This document shows, one piece after another, positions 3,554-34,174 of a stretch of DNA of 64,000 nt. Position 1 is the first letter of the stretch, and each line of letters starts with the position of its first letter. The notes below the pieces were generated by a model. It did not search any database. It was given only the letters and a program-made list of their open reading frames with translations, and had not been told where the DNA came from. This DNA comes from Trueperaceae bacterium (GTDB taxonomy: Bacteria > Deinococcota > Deinococci > Deinococcales > Trueperaceae): NCBI GenBank assembly GCA_023954415.1, contig JAMLIB010000001.1, positions 1-64,000 on the forward strand. The letters run 5' to 3'. The translations under genes were made by a program, and so were the position numbers.

Positions 3554-4153
3554 ATGAACGAGACCCATACTCACACCCAGACGCCATTCTTCGCCGACAA
3601 GCAGGAGAAGCTCGCCGAGATCCTCTCGCGCTACCCGGCCGATGGGCGCCGCAGCGCCCTCATGCCCCTCCTCTGGGAAGTCCAGCGCGAGGAGCGCTAC
3701 GTGAGCGAGGAGCGCATGCGCGAGCTCGCAGAGATCGTCGGCACGACGGCCACGGAAGTCAAGGGCGTCATGTCGTTCTACTCCACCTATCACGACCAGC
3801 CCGTCGGCACGTTCCACATCCAGGTCTGCTCCACGCTCTCGTGCGCCCTGGCGGGCTCCGACGAGCTGTTCGACTTCCTCTCGAACGAGCTCGGCATCGT
3901 CAACGGCGAGACCACGGCGGACGGCAGGTTCAGCCTGCAGAAGGTCGAATGCGTCGGCTCCTGCGGCACCGCGCCCGTCGTGCAGGTGAACGACACCTAC
4001 TTCGAACGCGTCGGCCGCGGGCGCTGCCGGCGCCTCGTCGACGCGCTCAGGCAGGGTGAGATGCCGCCCGTGTGGCGCGAGCGCGGCGGCGACACGGTCG
4101 GTGCCGCCAAGGCCGAGCCGCTCCAGAAGCCGACCGACGTAAGGGAGGGGTGA
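3554..4153 (+). CDS. nuoE: NADH-quinone oxidoreductase subunit E
   Basis: 24-kDa-type subunit binding the [2Fe-2S] cluster N1a in the NADH-dehydrogenase module. 199 aa. The four ligands appear as CSTLSC (CX4C) and CVGSC (CX3C), followed by [10 protein letters not shown]. The C-terminus has about 35 extra polar residues. The start is ATG 3554, 8 nt after the nuoD stop, with AAGTGAG just before it. Confidence 0.95.
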
Positions 4154-4154
4154 C

Positions 4155-5504
4155 GTGAGCGACCAAGCCGCCACCGCGGCGAAGCCGGCCCCCATCCTTA
4201 GCCGGCACGACCCGCGTTACGAGGTCACCATGTACCGCTACGTCGGCGTGGAGGGGGCGCACACGCTCGACTTCTACCGCTCCCACGGCGGTTACGAGGC
4301 GGCCAAGAAGGCTCTGACGGGCATGACGCCCGCCCAGGTCATCGACGAGGTCAAGGCGTCCGGGCTCCGCGGCCGCGGCGGCGCCGGCTTCCCGACGGGC
4401 GTCAAGTGGTCGTTCATGGCCCCGCCCGACGGCAAGCCGCGCTACCTCGTGTGCAACGCCGACGAATCGGAGCCCGGCTCCTTCAAGGACCGCTACATCC
4501 TCGAGGACGACCCGCACCAGCTCGTCGAGGGCATGATCATCGGCGCCTACGCCATGCAGATGACCTTCGGCTTCCTCTACGTGCGCGGTGAGTACTACCT
4601 GGGTACGACGCGCATGGAGGCCGCGATCGCGGAGGCGCGCGCGGCCGGCCTGCTCGGCGAGAACATCCTCGGCACGAACTTCTCCTTCGACATCACGGTC
4701 CACCGGGGCGCCGGCGCCTACATCTGCGGCGAGGAGACGGCCCTCATGAACTCGCTCGAGGGCCTGCGCGCCAACCCGCGCCTCAAGCCGCCCTTCCCGG
4801 CCGCGGCCGGCATGTACGGGCGGCCGACCACCATCAACAACGTCACGAGCCTCACGAGCGCCGTGCACATCATCGACAAGGGCGCCGCCTGGTTCGCTGG
4901 GATGGGCACGGACGACAGCAAGGGCACGAAGCTCTACCAGATCTCCGGGCCCGTCAAGCGCACGGGCGTCTACGAGATGCCCATGGGGGCCACGTTCCGC
5001 GAGCTGATCTACGACTTCGCGGGCGGGCCGACCATGGAGCCGAAGGCGTTCATCCCCGGTGGCTCGTCCACCCCCATGTTCCCGTGGGAGGACCGCTTCC
5101 TCGACATGCCGATGGACTACGGCACGCTGGCCAAGAACGGCTCGATGCTCGGCACGGGCGGCGTGATCGTCATCCCGCGCGACAAGTGCATCGTCGACGC
5201 CCTTTACAACCTCGTGCGCTTCTACGCCCACGAGTCGTGCGGCAAGTGCACCCCGTGCCGCGAGGGCGTCGGTCATTGGCTGCCGCGCATGTACCAGAAG
5301 CTCGTGTCCGGCCTCGGTCAGCCCGAGGACATCGCCCTCCTCGAGAGCGTCGCGAGCAACATCAAAAGCAACGCGTTCTGCCCGCTGGCCGACGCGTGCA
5401 TCGGCCCCGTGCAGGCGAGCCTCAAGTGGTTCAGGGACGAGTACGAGTACCTCGCGGCGAACGGCAAGTCGAAGTACCCCAAGAACGACTGGTGGCAGGC
5501 ATGA
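4155..5504 (+). CDS. nuoF: NADH-quinone oxidoreductase subunit F
   Basis: 51-kDa-type flavoprotein that oxidises NADH. 449 aa. [10 protein letters not shown] (NADH/FMN loop), [13 protein letters not shown] (FMN) and the [4Fe-4S] N3 ligands [11 protein letters not shown] plus the distal Cys in FCPLADAC are present. GTG 4155 lies one base after the nuoE stop. The C-terminal stop overlaps the nuoG ATG. Confidence 0.97.
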
Positions 5505-28070: not shown

Positions 28071-28412
28071 ATGGCCACCCCTCATCGTCCGTCCTTAGCG
28101 GTGCGCCGCGCCTTGCGAGAGCTTGGGCACGACGTTAAGGTGGCCCGCCTGCGGCGGAACCTCACGATGGATACCGTTGCCGAGCGCGCGTTCACCAGCC
28201 GCCCAACGCTCCAGCGTTTAGAGGCTGGCGACCCCGGAGTCGGCATGGGGATCTACGCGAGTGTCCTTCAAGCGCTGGGCCTCCTCGAGAACCTCGGCAA
28301 GCTTGCTGGTCCAGGAGTCGACGAGATCGGGCTGGCCCATGCCGAGCAGGCGCTTCCTCGGCGAGCCAGGTCGAAGCGGAACACGTCGAAGGGTGCTAGC
28401 GATGAAGGATGA
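28071..28412 (+). CDS. HTH regulator, HipB-like antitoxin
   Basis: 113 aa. A Cro/C1-type helix-turn-helix covers about residues 18-70 (KVARLRRNLTMDTVAERAFTSRPTLQRLE in pieces). The C-terminal 40 residues are basic and low in complexity. It overlaps a HipA-like frame by 11 bp, the usual antitoxin-toxin coupling. ATG 28071 lies 8 nt after TAGGAT (28057-28062). Its partner is broken, so it may persist as an orphan regulator. Confidence 0.75.
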   Translation: MATPHRPSLAVRRALRELGHDVKVARLRRNLTMDTVAERAFTSRPTLQRLEAGDPGVGMGIYASVLQALGLLENLGKLAGPGVDEIGLAHAEQALPRRARSKRNTSKGASDEG

Positions 28413-29051
28413 GATCGAGGTCTTCATCCAACAAGCTGGCGAGGACTATCTCGTAGGCTCACTGTATCGACGACCGCATAAAGGATTCGAAGCTAGCGGC
28501 TTCAGGTACGCGTCGTCTTGGCTTGCGAACCCGAATGCGTTTTCCCCCCGACCGACACTTCGGCTAGATCCTGCCCCCGTTCGTGCCAAACCGGGGACAG
28601 GTGGTGTTAGGGGCGTTCGGCGATTCAGCGCCAGATACCTGGGGGCGCAGCCTGCTGCGGCGAGCCGAGCGCAGAAACGCGAGACGCGAGAACCGTCCCG
28701 TCCGCGCCCTGCAAGAACTCGACGTCCTCCTTGGTGTGTCGGACCAGGCGAGGATGGACGCTCTCGCCGGCCTACGACTTGAACCCCACGCCAGCCGATG
28801 TCCGGCCTAGGGTTCTGACGACGGCCATCGACGGTGAGGAGCGCGTTTGCGATCTGGAACTCGCGCTCGGATCGGCTCGATACTTCGGGTTGAGTCCTCA
28901 GGCTGCGAGCGAGATCGTTAAGGAAGTCGGGCGCGCGACTCGGACTTGGCGCGACGTGGCTGCGGGCCTTGGGGCGCCGGGCTACGAGATTGAACGCATG
29001 AGCACCGCGTTCGAGCACGAAGACCTACGGTTGGCGCTGCGCACCAGCTAG
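28402..29051 (+). pseudogene. Broken hipA (frameshift plus loss of kinase core)
   Basis: Three consecutive frames together spell parts of one HipA-family toxin kinase. Frame 1 from ATG 28402 gives the N-terminal domain (VGSLYRRPHKGFEASGFRY, up to about 28555). Frame 2 (about 28565-28745) continues with VVLGAFGDSAPDTWGRSLL and LLGVSDQARMDAL. Frame 3 (about 28756-29051) resumes at LSPAYDLNPTP and runs to a normal-looking C-terminus. The roughly 200 residues that normally lie between the last two, with the ATP site and catalytic Asp, are missing. The first shift lies near a run of six C. It cannot encode an active kinase. Confidence 0.8.
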
Positions 29052-31282: not shown

Positions 31283-31425
31283 GAGGTCCTTTCCTGGCCG
31301 TGATGCGGTTCGCCGACTATAGCGCCGATCCAGCCGGTGCCGAGGCGCGGACGAAGCGGCCCTCTGAAAGATCCCCCGGCGGTGCTACCTTGTCTCTCGA
31401 CCAAGGGACGGGAGGTGCCGACGCT

Positions 31426-32055
31426 ATGGCCGAACTGAACGTGATACTGGCGACAACGCTTGACGGTTTCATCGCCGGTGAGGACGGCAGCCTGGACTGG
31501 CTCATCATGGGTGACGAGCGCGCGGACTACATGGCCGAGTGGAGCAAGCGTGCCGACACGCTCCTCTTGGGGCGTCGGAGCTACCAAGGCTTCATCACGT
31601 TCTGGCCGGGCGCTCCGAATAACCCTAATGCAACGCCGGCGGAGAAGACCATCGGGCAGCACTACAACGCCATGCGGAAGGTCTTGTTCTCCACGACTCT
31701 GACGAGAGCCGACTGGCTCGAGACGACCGTCATGCACAGCATCGAGCCCGACCGCGTCCGCGAACTCAAGGCGGAGTCGAAGAAGGGTGTCCGCGTCGAC
31801 GGCAGCATAAGTGTCGTGCAGCAGCTAACTAAGCTGGGCTTGATAGACGAGTACCGGCTCATGGTCCATCCGGTCGCGCTAGGGCGTGGTCGACCGCTGT
31901 TCACCGAGCGGGTCGACCTGGACCTGGTCGAATCCGAGCGCTGGAGGAACGGCGTCGTTGTGCATACCTACAGGTTGGCGTCCGGCGCTGCGGTCGAGTC
32001 GGTTGGATTCACGCGGCCGGAAGTCCAGGGCGATCCTCCGCATGACGGCGAGTGA
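31426..32055 (+). CDS. RibD C-terminal / DHFR-fold reductase
   Basis: 209 aa. Starts with the typical LNVILATTLDGFIAGEDGSLDW and contains LLLGRRSYQGF and the C-terminal IDEYRLMVHPVALGRGRPLF; such proteins bind NADPH but their substrates are mostly unknown. ATG 31426 has GGGAGGT nine bases upstream. The last 47 bp overlap the end of the truncated hipA on the other strand. A second, distinct member is at 40204. Confidence 0.85.
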   Translation: MAELNVILATTLDGFIAGEDGSLDWLIMGDERADYMAEWSKRADTLLLGRRSYQGFITFWPGAPNNPNATPAEKTIGQHYNAMRKVLFSTTLTRADWLETTVMHSIEPDRVRELKAESKKGVRVDGSISVVQQLTKLGLIDEYRLMVHPVALGRGRPLFTERVDLDLVESERWRNGVVVHTYRLASGAAVESVGFTRPEVQGDPPHDGE

Positions 32056-32218
32056 GCTTCGGGCGAGGCTGCGTGAGCGGGGCGGCTACGGAAAGAATCA
32101 AGCTATCGATGCCGAAGGTTCTGAGAGCGTCGGAAGTGGCGATGAAGTCGAACGCGCTTCGTTCTTCACGGAGCACGCCAACCTGCACTCCGTACAGCTC
32201 CACCACCAACTCAGGCAT
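32009..32218 (-). pseudogene. Truncated hipA (N-terminal domain only)
   Basis: The first 48 or so residues (LVVELYGVQVGVL, FDFIATSDALRTFGIDSLILSVAAPL) are those of the N-terminal subdomain of HipA kinases. The rest of the frame, about 20 residues, is unrelated and ends inside the convergent reductase gene. Some 350 residues with the whole kinase domain are lost. ATG 32218 overlaps the hipB stop by 8 bp. It belongs to a different HipA subtype from the remnant at 28402. Confidence 0.75.
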
Positions 32219-32450
32219 CGTGATCGCCCGTCGTTATCGTGGCGGTCAGCTCGACCCCGGTCTCCTTCATCATCGCGAAGAGGCGCTCGACGAATATGGA
32301 GGGCTTGCCGGCCTCCATCTCCCAAACGTAGCGCTGGGTCGTCCCGAGGCGCTTGGCCAGCTCGCGCTGGCTAAGCCCTCCGAGCAACCTGGCCTGCTGC
32401 AGGATCCTTCCCAGCGATTCTGGACCGGTGACCTTCCCGCTGTACTTCAC
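32211..32450 (-). CDS. hipB: HipB-like antitoxin / XRE regulator
   Basis: 79 aa, Cro/C1 helix-turn-helix over about residues 12-65 (LGRILQQARLLGGLSQRELAKRL, split by the turn, then TQRYVWEMEAGKPS). HipB proteins dimerise, bind operator pairs and neutralise HipA. GTG 32450 has AGGAGG 4-5 nt upstream. Its promoter and operators look intact although the toxin gene is not. Confidence 0.85.
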   Translation of the reverse strand: MKYSGKVTGPESLGRILQQARLLGGLSQRELAKRLGTTQRYVWEMEAGKPSIFVERLFAMMKETGVELTATITTGDHDA

Positions 32451-32459
32451 GCCGCCTCC

Positions 32460-32507
32460 TGACTACTACATCGTAGTCAGAGTAGTCGACTACTAAACGG
32501 TAGTCAA
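32460..32507 (-). promoter_or_regulatory. hipB promoter with paired operators
   Basis: On the minus strand: -35 TTGACT (32502-32507), an exact 17-bp spacer, -10 TACTCT (32479-32484). Two copies of GACTAC-N6-GTAGTC lie at 32461-32478 and 32488-32505, 27 bp apart centre to centre, and a 14-bp perfect palindrome (32481-32494) lies between them over the spacer. One operator covers the -35 and the other lies just downstream of the -10. Confidence 0.75.
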
Positions 32508-32512
32508 GCGCC

Positions 32513-34174
32513 TCAAACCAACTTCCCCCGCAACCAGGAGGACACGAAGTCGATGATGTTCACCACGATCACGATGGCGATGATGGCGATGATCATCTGG
32601 TCGTACTTACCGGAGGCCATCTTGTCCTGGATGAAGAAGCCGATGCCACCGGCGCCAACGAGGCCGAGGACGATCGAGACGCGGAAGTTGATCTCGAAGC
32701 GGTAGAGGGTCCAGCCGAGGAACAGGGGCGACACCTGGGGGAGGATGGCCCAGCGGACCACGTTGCTGCCAGCGGCCCCTACGGACTCGAGCGCCTCGAT
32801 GGGGCCTCGGTCGACGTTCTCGATGGACTCCGAGTAGAGCTTGCCGAGGTCCGCGATCGAGTGGATGGCCATGGCGAGCACGCCGGCCAGCGGCCCCAGC
32901 CCGACGGCGGCGACGAAGATCAGGGCGAGGATCAGCGTGTCGACCCCGCGGTCCAGGTTGAAGAAGCCGCGCGTGATCACGAACGCGGCGCGCATGAGCG
33001 GGTTGCCGGACGTGAGGTTGCGGGCGGCGAGGAAGCTCAAGGGAACGGCGAAGATGGCGCCGAGGAACGTGCCGACGAGCGCGATCTCCAGCGTTATCAG
33101 CATCTGGCTCGCGACCTCTTGCAGCGGGAAGAGGCCGAACTGCCCGTAGCTCGGGTCCGCGAGGAGCGGGGGCCACGCGCGGTCGAGGAAGTTGAGGAGG
33201 AACGGCCAGCCCTCGACGATCTTCCCCAGGCTGAACCTCGTAGAGGCGAACGCGGGGGCGAGGACGACGAGCGCGGCGGCGTACACCAGGCCGGTCACGA
33301 GGTCGTTACCGCTCTTGAGCTTGGGTCTGGCGGCCAGCATGGCGCCGCTGCCGAGCAGCAGCCCGCAGAGGAGGAAGGCAACGCCGACGCCGTAGCCGCC
33401 CTCCGCCGGCCTGAGCATCCGGTAGCCGGTCGCGGCCGCCTCCTCGGGCAGGCGCTCGGTGGCGAGCCCCGCCGTGCTCTCGATGGGCGGCAGCGGGCGC
33501 AGGCCGATGCGTTGGCGCTGCGCATTGGTGACGTCGAGGTTGGCGTTGTAAGCCTCGACGATGGTCTCCTGCTCGTTCGCGGACGTCTTCGTCACGAGCC
33601 GGTAGTAGCCGACCGCGTTGGGGAACAGCCGATGGCCGGCGGGTGAGAGGAGCAGGACGCCGGCGAGGACGCCCACCACGAGCCCGAGCCCCAGGAGCGG
33701 CCAACGTAGGCGTCGCGCGCCCCAGCCGGCTGCCGCGATGGCCGCACCGAGCACCGCCGCCGTGAGCACCTCCATGAGGCCGCCGAGCGGGAGCAGGTGG
33801 ACGAGCACGGGCGTCTGGGCGCGCCAGACCAGGATCGCCGCCAGGCTCGCGGCGGCCGCTATCACGGCGACGAGCCCTCCAGCGCGCGGGCTCCGCAGTG
33901 CCACCACCAGGGCGACAAGGGCGGCCAGGAGGACGACCGCCAGGAGCGGCTGCAACGGTGTCAGCCCTAAGAGGGTCGGCCGGATGGTGTCGCGGCTGAC
34001 GAAGCCGACGGTGGTGGAGAACGGGAAGGCGAGATAGGCGACGATCAGCGCGAGGCTAGCCGTCACCACGAGGCGGCGCATCGAAGCGCGCGCGAACCCG
34101 GCCAGTACGGCCACGAGCGCGCCGACCGCCAACGCGCCCCACATCAGCGGACCGCCTTCGTCGGCGAGCTGCAC
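32513..34174 (-). CDS. phnE: PhnE-type ABC permease with long N-terminal membrane extension
   Basis: 553 aa, about twice the usual 260-290. The C-terminal 260 residues are a standard phosphonate-type permease (SQMLITLEIALVGTFLGAIFAVPLSFLAARNL, split here across its helices, and the EAA-like loop IEALESVGA). The N-terminal 275 residues have about six extra helices and a 75-residue soluble stretch (SANEQETIVEAYN region) before the last of them. It follows phnC by 21 bp. The importer probably takes up phosphonate, phosphite or phosphate ester, but no catabolic phn genes are near. Confidence 0.85.
   Translation of the reverse strand: MQLADEGGPLMWGALAVGALVAVLAGFARASMRRLVVTASLALIVAYLAFPFSTTVGFVSRDTIRPTLLGLTPLQPLLAVVLLAALVALVVALRSPRAGGLVAVIAAAASLAAILVWRAQTPVLVHLLPLGGLMEVLTAAVLGAAIAAAGWGARRLRWPLLGLGLVVGVLAGVLLLSPAGHRLFPNAVGYYRLVTKTSANEQETIVEAYNANLDVTNAQRQRIGLRPLPPIESTAGLATERLPEEAAATGYRMLRPAEGGYGVGVAFLLCGLLLGSGAMLAARPKLKSGNDLVTGLVYAAALVVLAPAFASTRFSLGKIVEGWPFLLNFLDRAWPPLLADPSYGQFGLFPLQEVASQMLITLEIALVGTFLGAIFAVPLSFLAARNLTSGNPLMRAAFVITRGFFNLDRGVDTLILALIFVAAVGLGPLAGVLAMAIHSIADLGKLYSESIENVDRGPIEALESVGAAGSNVVRWAILPQVSPLFLGWTLYRFEINFRVSIVLGLVGAGGIGFFIQDKMASGKYDQMIIAIIAIVIVVNIIDFVSSWLRGKLV

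Follow-up and report, generated by a model that had tools for sequence, protein, structure and literature searches.

The hipB locus

Within the 64,000-nucleotide stretch of Trueperaceae DNA analyzed here (hereafter, the window), phnE ends at position 32513 on the minus strand, and a 79-aa open reading frame begins 62 bp further on. The interval between the two genes contains a pair of exact GACTAC-N6-GTAGTC dyads, O1 and O2, a putative promoter and a ribosome binding site, and the open reading frame is followed by the beginning of a hipA gene (Table 1).

Table 1. Features of the hipB locus in the window.
Feature	Position	Strand	Basis
phnE stop/hip cassette joint	32508-32515		Comparison with relatives lacking hip
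Putative -35 element, TTGACT	32502-32507	-	Direct reading and comparison with relatives
Candidate operator O2, GACTACCGTTTAGTAGTC on the minus strand	32488-32505	-	Exact GACTAC-N6-GTAGTC dyad
14-bp perfect palindrome, AGTAGTCGACTACT	32481-32494		Direct sequence reading
Putative -10 element, TACTCT (TAnnnT class)	32479-32484	-	Comparison with relatives
Candidate operator O1, GACTACGATGTAGTAGTC on the minus strand	32461-32478	-	Exact GACTAC-N6-GTAGTC dyad
Ribosome binding site, AGGAGG	32455-32460	-	Direct reading; similar in relatives
hipB-like antitoxin gene (79 aa, GTG start at 32450)	32211-32450	-	Open reading frame, domain and profile searches, prediction
hipA remnant (first 49 codons, then non-homologous)	32009-32218	-	Comparison with relatives

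The open reading frame encodes a small HTH protein of the Xre/Cro-like type, with known HipB among its relatives. It contains an HTH_3 domain (E=1.2e-9), and an alignment-profile search, which reached solved HipB structures, matched E. coli HipB over residues 6-69 (about 2e-5); a single-sequence search of the PDB yielded no match, and HipB was reached with the alignment profile only. The predicted structure consists of four helices flanked by strands (pLDDT 89.9), and a Foldseek search against the PDB placed HipB entries near the top, lending weak support (E about 0.03-0.1, rmsd near 7, none with E<=0.001). Across 31 sequences, the recognition-helix residues Q39, Y41, W43 and E44 do not vary. 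The score against TIGR03070 (Y4mF family antitoxin), 36.7 bits, is below the curated cut-off of 71.65, and the protein is therefore not assigned to the Y4mF subfamily.

O1 and O2 had been described, in a prediction made from this DNA alone, as two identical 18-bp palindromes; the arms are indeed identical, but the six-base cores differ (TACATC versus TAAACG). The 27-bp start-to-start pitch and the coordinates given in that original prediction are correct by direct reading of the sequence, with a gap of 9 bp between the dyads, and O1 forms the centre of a 20-mer, TGACTAC-N6-GTAGTCA, at 32460-32479. The genome scan for GACTAC-N6-GTAGTC that had been proposed yielded three exact matches in 3.2 Mb, two of which are O1 and O2, and a tandem arrangement is found just once genome-wide, at the hipB promoter. 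The third exact match lies inside a CarD-like coding gene, where it is read as D-Y-L-K-V-V codons. With up to one mismatch, the genome contains 12 matches, two of them the operators, against 6 for a reversed-pattern control, and with up to two mismatches shuffled sequence gives 1.14 dyad matches per window. Given the 12 versus 6 matches and the position of the third exact match in a coding gene, we do not claim a wider regulon in this genome. The tandem motif was absent from the viral contigs searched, and the plasmids searched contained distant HipB only (<60% identity).

Linkage of the operators to hipB across genomes

Loci for comparison were gathered by a HipB protein search in which the DNA motif was not used, and the upstream regions were examined afterwards. 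The search returned 51 loci, those at least about 60% identical belonging to Actinobacteria, including Nocardioides, Nocardia, Frankia, Isoptericola and Microlunatus, and to a few Trueperaceae/Deinococcota MAGs. Sites are present upstream of hipB in 41 homologous loci from Actinobacteria and Trueperaceae, with the consensus TGACTAC G(A/T)4 C GTAGTCA (the central four bases being 93% A/T), and the distance between neighbouring sites is exactly 27 bp in 70 of 75 cases. Three sites were counted in 30 of 42 loci, two in nine, four in two and one in one, at a threshold of 9 of 14 letters at which shuffles give 0.25 matches per locus and a few counted sites are noise, one of them at -159 in the window itself. 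Judged from these upstream regions, the usual array is one of three operators, and the window has two. The HipB of locus L091, which is 50% identical, is preceded by three sites at the 27-bp pitch with the half-site TGACGGC; in this one case, the pitch seems to outlast the half-site letters. Separately, a HipB paralogue, L095 (G151:C47:50637-50822; 39% identical), has TGATATC-type repeats upstream instead, which suggests another operator type.

Scans that started from the pattern agree with the protein search. The tandem motif, with up to three mismatches allowed, was found in five of 111 Deinococcota genomes, G000, G003, G004, G027 and G030, which are exactly the genomes with a close HipB (76-99% identical); it was absent from G101 and G103, both with weak HipB-like matches. 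It occurred in the seed genome only among 396 actinobacterial genomes and, within the G151 family (150 genomes), in G151 only, the sole genome there with a close HipB, that is, in the two seeds only among about 545 actinobacterial genomes in all. No false positive was seen in these scans, in which the genomes are related and hence are not independent trials. Conservation within the lineage of the window would be weak proof alone, as the identity between G000 and G003 in this region is about 97%. The original prediction depended on the palindromes being related to hipB in relatives, and in this respect it was strongly borne out, by the 41 loci and by the pattern-first scans alike.

Given that the sites are flanked by phnE and hipB, with the end of phnE only a few bases upstream, the palindromes might instead serve another regulator, for example, of the phosphonate ABC operon upstream, with hipB merely adjacent. 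However, where phnE lacks hip behind it, in G001, G004 and G005, homology to the window stops at 32508-32523, which is the phnE stop, and phnE in sister genomes lacking hip at this place has no sites after its stop, the homology ending at the joint. Furthermore, in all other loci, the sites go with hipB and not with phnE, so that we give this explanation almost no credence. The end of homology at the phnE stop indicates that, in the lineage of G000 and G003, the hip cassette was attached immediately behind phnE. The third operator, O3, is missing here because the cassette boundary just upstream of O2 leaves no room for it; three sites were counted in each of L009, L027 and L042, which are Trueperaceae relatives.

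Placement of the operators on the hipB promoter

The putative -35 element lies within the 5' arm of O2, with which it shares bases, the 17-bp spacer between TTGACT and TACTCT runs over O2, and the -10 element occupies the O2-O1 gap, ending in the T with which the O1 20-mer begins. O1 itself sits between the -10 element and the ribosome binding site, across the likely transcription start. A generic sigma-70 promoter scan of the region called no promoter, because TACTCT fits TATAAT at only three of six positions, and the promoter call rests on comparison with relatives, which supports it. Letters specific to a promoter are expected at O2/O1 and should be absent from the O3/O2 interval, which is equal in other respects. 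O2 is preceded by the T needed to complete TTGAC in 29 of 42 loci, and O3 in 6 of 30 (p=4.6e-5), and TA occupies the -10 place in 23 of 42 O2-O1 spacers versus 2 of 30 O3-O2 spacers (p=1.5e-5), both p values ignoring shared ancestry; the full combination of TTGAC and TAnnnT is found in 17 of 42 loci at O2/O1 versus 2 of 31 at O3/O2. Since the promoter letters are concentrated at O2/O1, the 27-bp pitch fits the promoter. Comparison across 42 loci thus upholds the proposal that the operators cover the -35 element and the region just past the -10 element of a promoter with a 17-bp spacer, and repeated dyads overlap the hipB promoter, as in multi-operator HipB autoregulation.

The 14-bp perfect palindrome that was reported between the dyads exists in the window as a result of the sequence of its 9-bp spacer, GACTACTCT. 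As AGTAGTCGACTACT is composed of half-site letters, it could be taken for a second, mutually exclusive register, with HipB toggling between two arrangements, in line with the claim that the inner half-sites pair in two ways to give two alternative palindromes. However, the palindrome is found in 2 of 42 loci, the window and its sister L013, and the O2-O1 spacer is otherwise free apart from the -10 element. Moreover, the palindrome is everted, with half-sites that face outward, unlike those of GACTAC-N6-GTAGTC, and is therefore not an operator in that sense. The alternative pairing, being confined to two loci and joining outward-facing half-sites, is not supported by the comparison; the inner palindrome is probably incidental, and a toggle is highly improbable.

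Truncation of hipA

In the sister locus L013, phnE and hipB are followed by an intact hipA of 410 aa, which encodes Couple_hipA and HipA_C domains, and then by a DUF2785 gene. In the window, hipA runs past codon 49 into the apparent start of a DUF2785 gene, with the deletion junction at about 32073-32078, within CTCACG, which is common to both sides. On this comparison, the C-terminal kinase part of hipA is gone by deletion, and 49 codons lie directly downstream of hipB in place of the full-length HipA kinase gene of a hipBA type II module. Another full-length HipA was sought in the genome and none was found, the remaining HipA_C matches being partial; with hipA cut and no full-length HipA elsewhere, HipB is therefore a solitary antitoxin here. 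The region had been called a compact repression switch, which fits the candidate HipB operators over the hipB promoter, but as a toxin-antitoxin switch it is incomplete, with hipA truncated after codon 49. Among 40 assessable loci, hipA is intact in 28 and broken or missing, with the operators kept, in 12 (the window, L014, L021, L022, L024, L025, L027, L033, L037, L041, L047 and L052), a count biased by the use of hipB as the query and drawn in part from draft assemblies, with L033 and L052 possibly assembly-limited or partial.

Several further features were observed around these genes. At 31300-32055 on the plus strand, the window has a RibD_C gene where L013 has the DUF2785 gene (4109-5011, minus strand), and the two share their first codons (MAELNV), which suggests that the two sisters underwent different deletions or insertions. 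Another hipBA-like remnant, distinct from the first, lies 3.5 kb away, at 28071-29051 on the plus strand, and consists of an HTH open reading frame (28071-28412) followed by a frame-broken hipA-like gene with a HipA_C tail (28731-29051). Elsewhere in the genome, and in G003 too, a 205-aa open frame (locus L109, G000:C2:88471-88947) matches HipA_C positions 55-213 only and represents a truncated or split kinase.

Proposed working of the locus

We consider it very probable that O1 and O2 are HipB autorepression operators from an acquired hipBA cassette, from which hipA was later cut, leaving an autoregulated solitary antitoxin. The linkage of the operators to hipB, the 27-bp pitch, the promoter placement and the loss of hipA come from sequence comparison, and HipB autorepression, in which we infer binding and repression, is by far the best reading. 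A HipB dimer, encoded 10 bp downstream, would bind each 18-bp dyad (TGACTAC-N6-GTAGTCA, with an AT-rich centre). With O2 over the -35 element and O1 just past the -10 element and over the likely start, bound HipB would exclude RNA polymerase and hold its own expression low. The operator array would have arrived with the hipBA cassette when this was acquired horizontally and came to lie immediately behind phnE, and a later deletion would have cut hipA after codon 49. Neighbouring HipB dimers may help each other in binding, as the cooperative binding of E. coli HipB to its four sites suggests. In structure work on HipBA-promoter complexes, part of this cooperation reportedly runs through HipA; with hipA lost, any HipA-mediated part cannot operate in this genome.

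The same sites could have a different role at present, as a decaying relic in which hipB and the operators are unused and persist because the deletion is recent. Such decay would agree with the truncation of hipA, with the lack of any other full-length HipA in the genome and with the sister DNA, about 97% identical, which implies that little time has elapsed. Nevertheless, the half-sites are unchanged, and 11 other loci keep hipB and the operators with a broken or missing hipA, a number that the search with hipB as the query favours; between the hipB genes of the window and L013, there are two silent and one replacement codon changes, too few to judge. A relic is thus a real possibility that falls somewhat short of being probable.

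Under HipB autorepression, the window locus is a natural case of a HipB circuit with the toxin removed. The operator string was not found in the open-licence papers searched; the multi-operator HipB plan is known already, and what is new lies in the operator letters, in the strictness of the 27-bp pitch and in the host range. The comparison provides a testable operator, TGACTAC-N6-GTAGTCA at a 27-bp pitch, for a widespread, apparently unstudied hipBA subfamily and suggests that half-site letters change with no shift in operator pitch. As speculation that is unlikely to hold in full, we also raise that Actinobacteria and Deinococcota have in common a HipB subfamily whose operators move with it at a fixed 27-bp pitch, and that this HipB has repeatedly been kept as a solitary, autoregulated antitoxin after hipA loss (12 of the 40 assessable loci); it might, for instance, protect against related incoming HipA or serve simply as a regulator.

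Comparison with known HipB systems

Legionella pneumophila HipBST has three evenly spaced, HipB-bound 18-nt inverted-repeat operators with 6-nt arms (PMC10653801), but the gaps are 53 bp there and 9 bp here. HipBST is also tripartite, with a split kinase, whereas the relatives of the window locus have one full-length HipA, and the sister HipA holds the N-terminal and C-terminal domains in one chain. In Caulobacter crescentus, the promoter regions of hipBA1 and hipBA2 are reported to contain three palindromic operators (PMC8545095), the same number as in the usual array here. E. coli HipB binds four sites cooperatively (PMC3376134, PMC3920265), compared with two or three operators in this group. 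The half-site in E. coli K-12 is TATCC and that here is TGACTAC, the locus thus falling outside the E. coli hipBA operator class (TATCC-N8-GGATA there, TGACTAC-N6-GTAGTCA here), and hipA is deleted in the window genome. The two systems nevertheless share an Xre/Cro-like HTH antitoxin encoded upstream of hipA and tandem 18-bp dyads over the promoter, with the two dyads of the E. coli O1O2 oligonucleotide lying at a pitch of 28 bp, as counted from the printed sequence (PMC3376134), versus 27 bp here.
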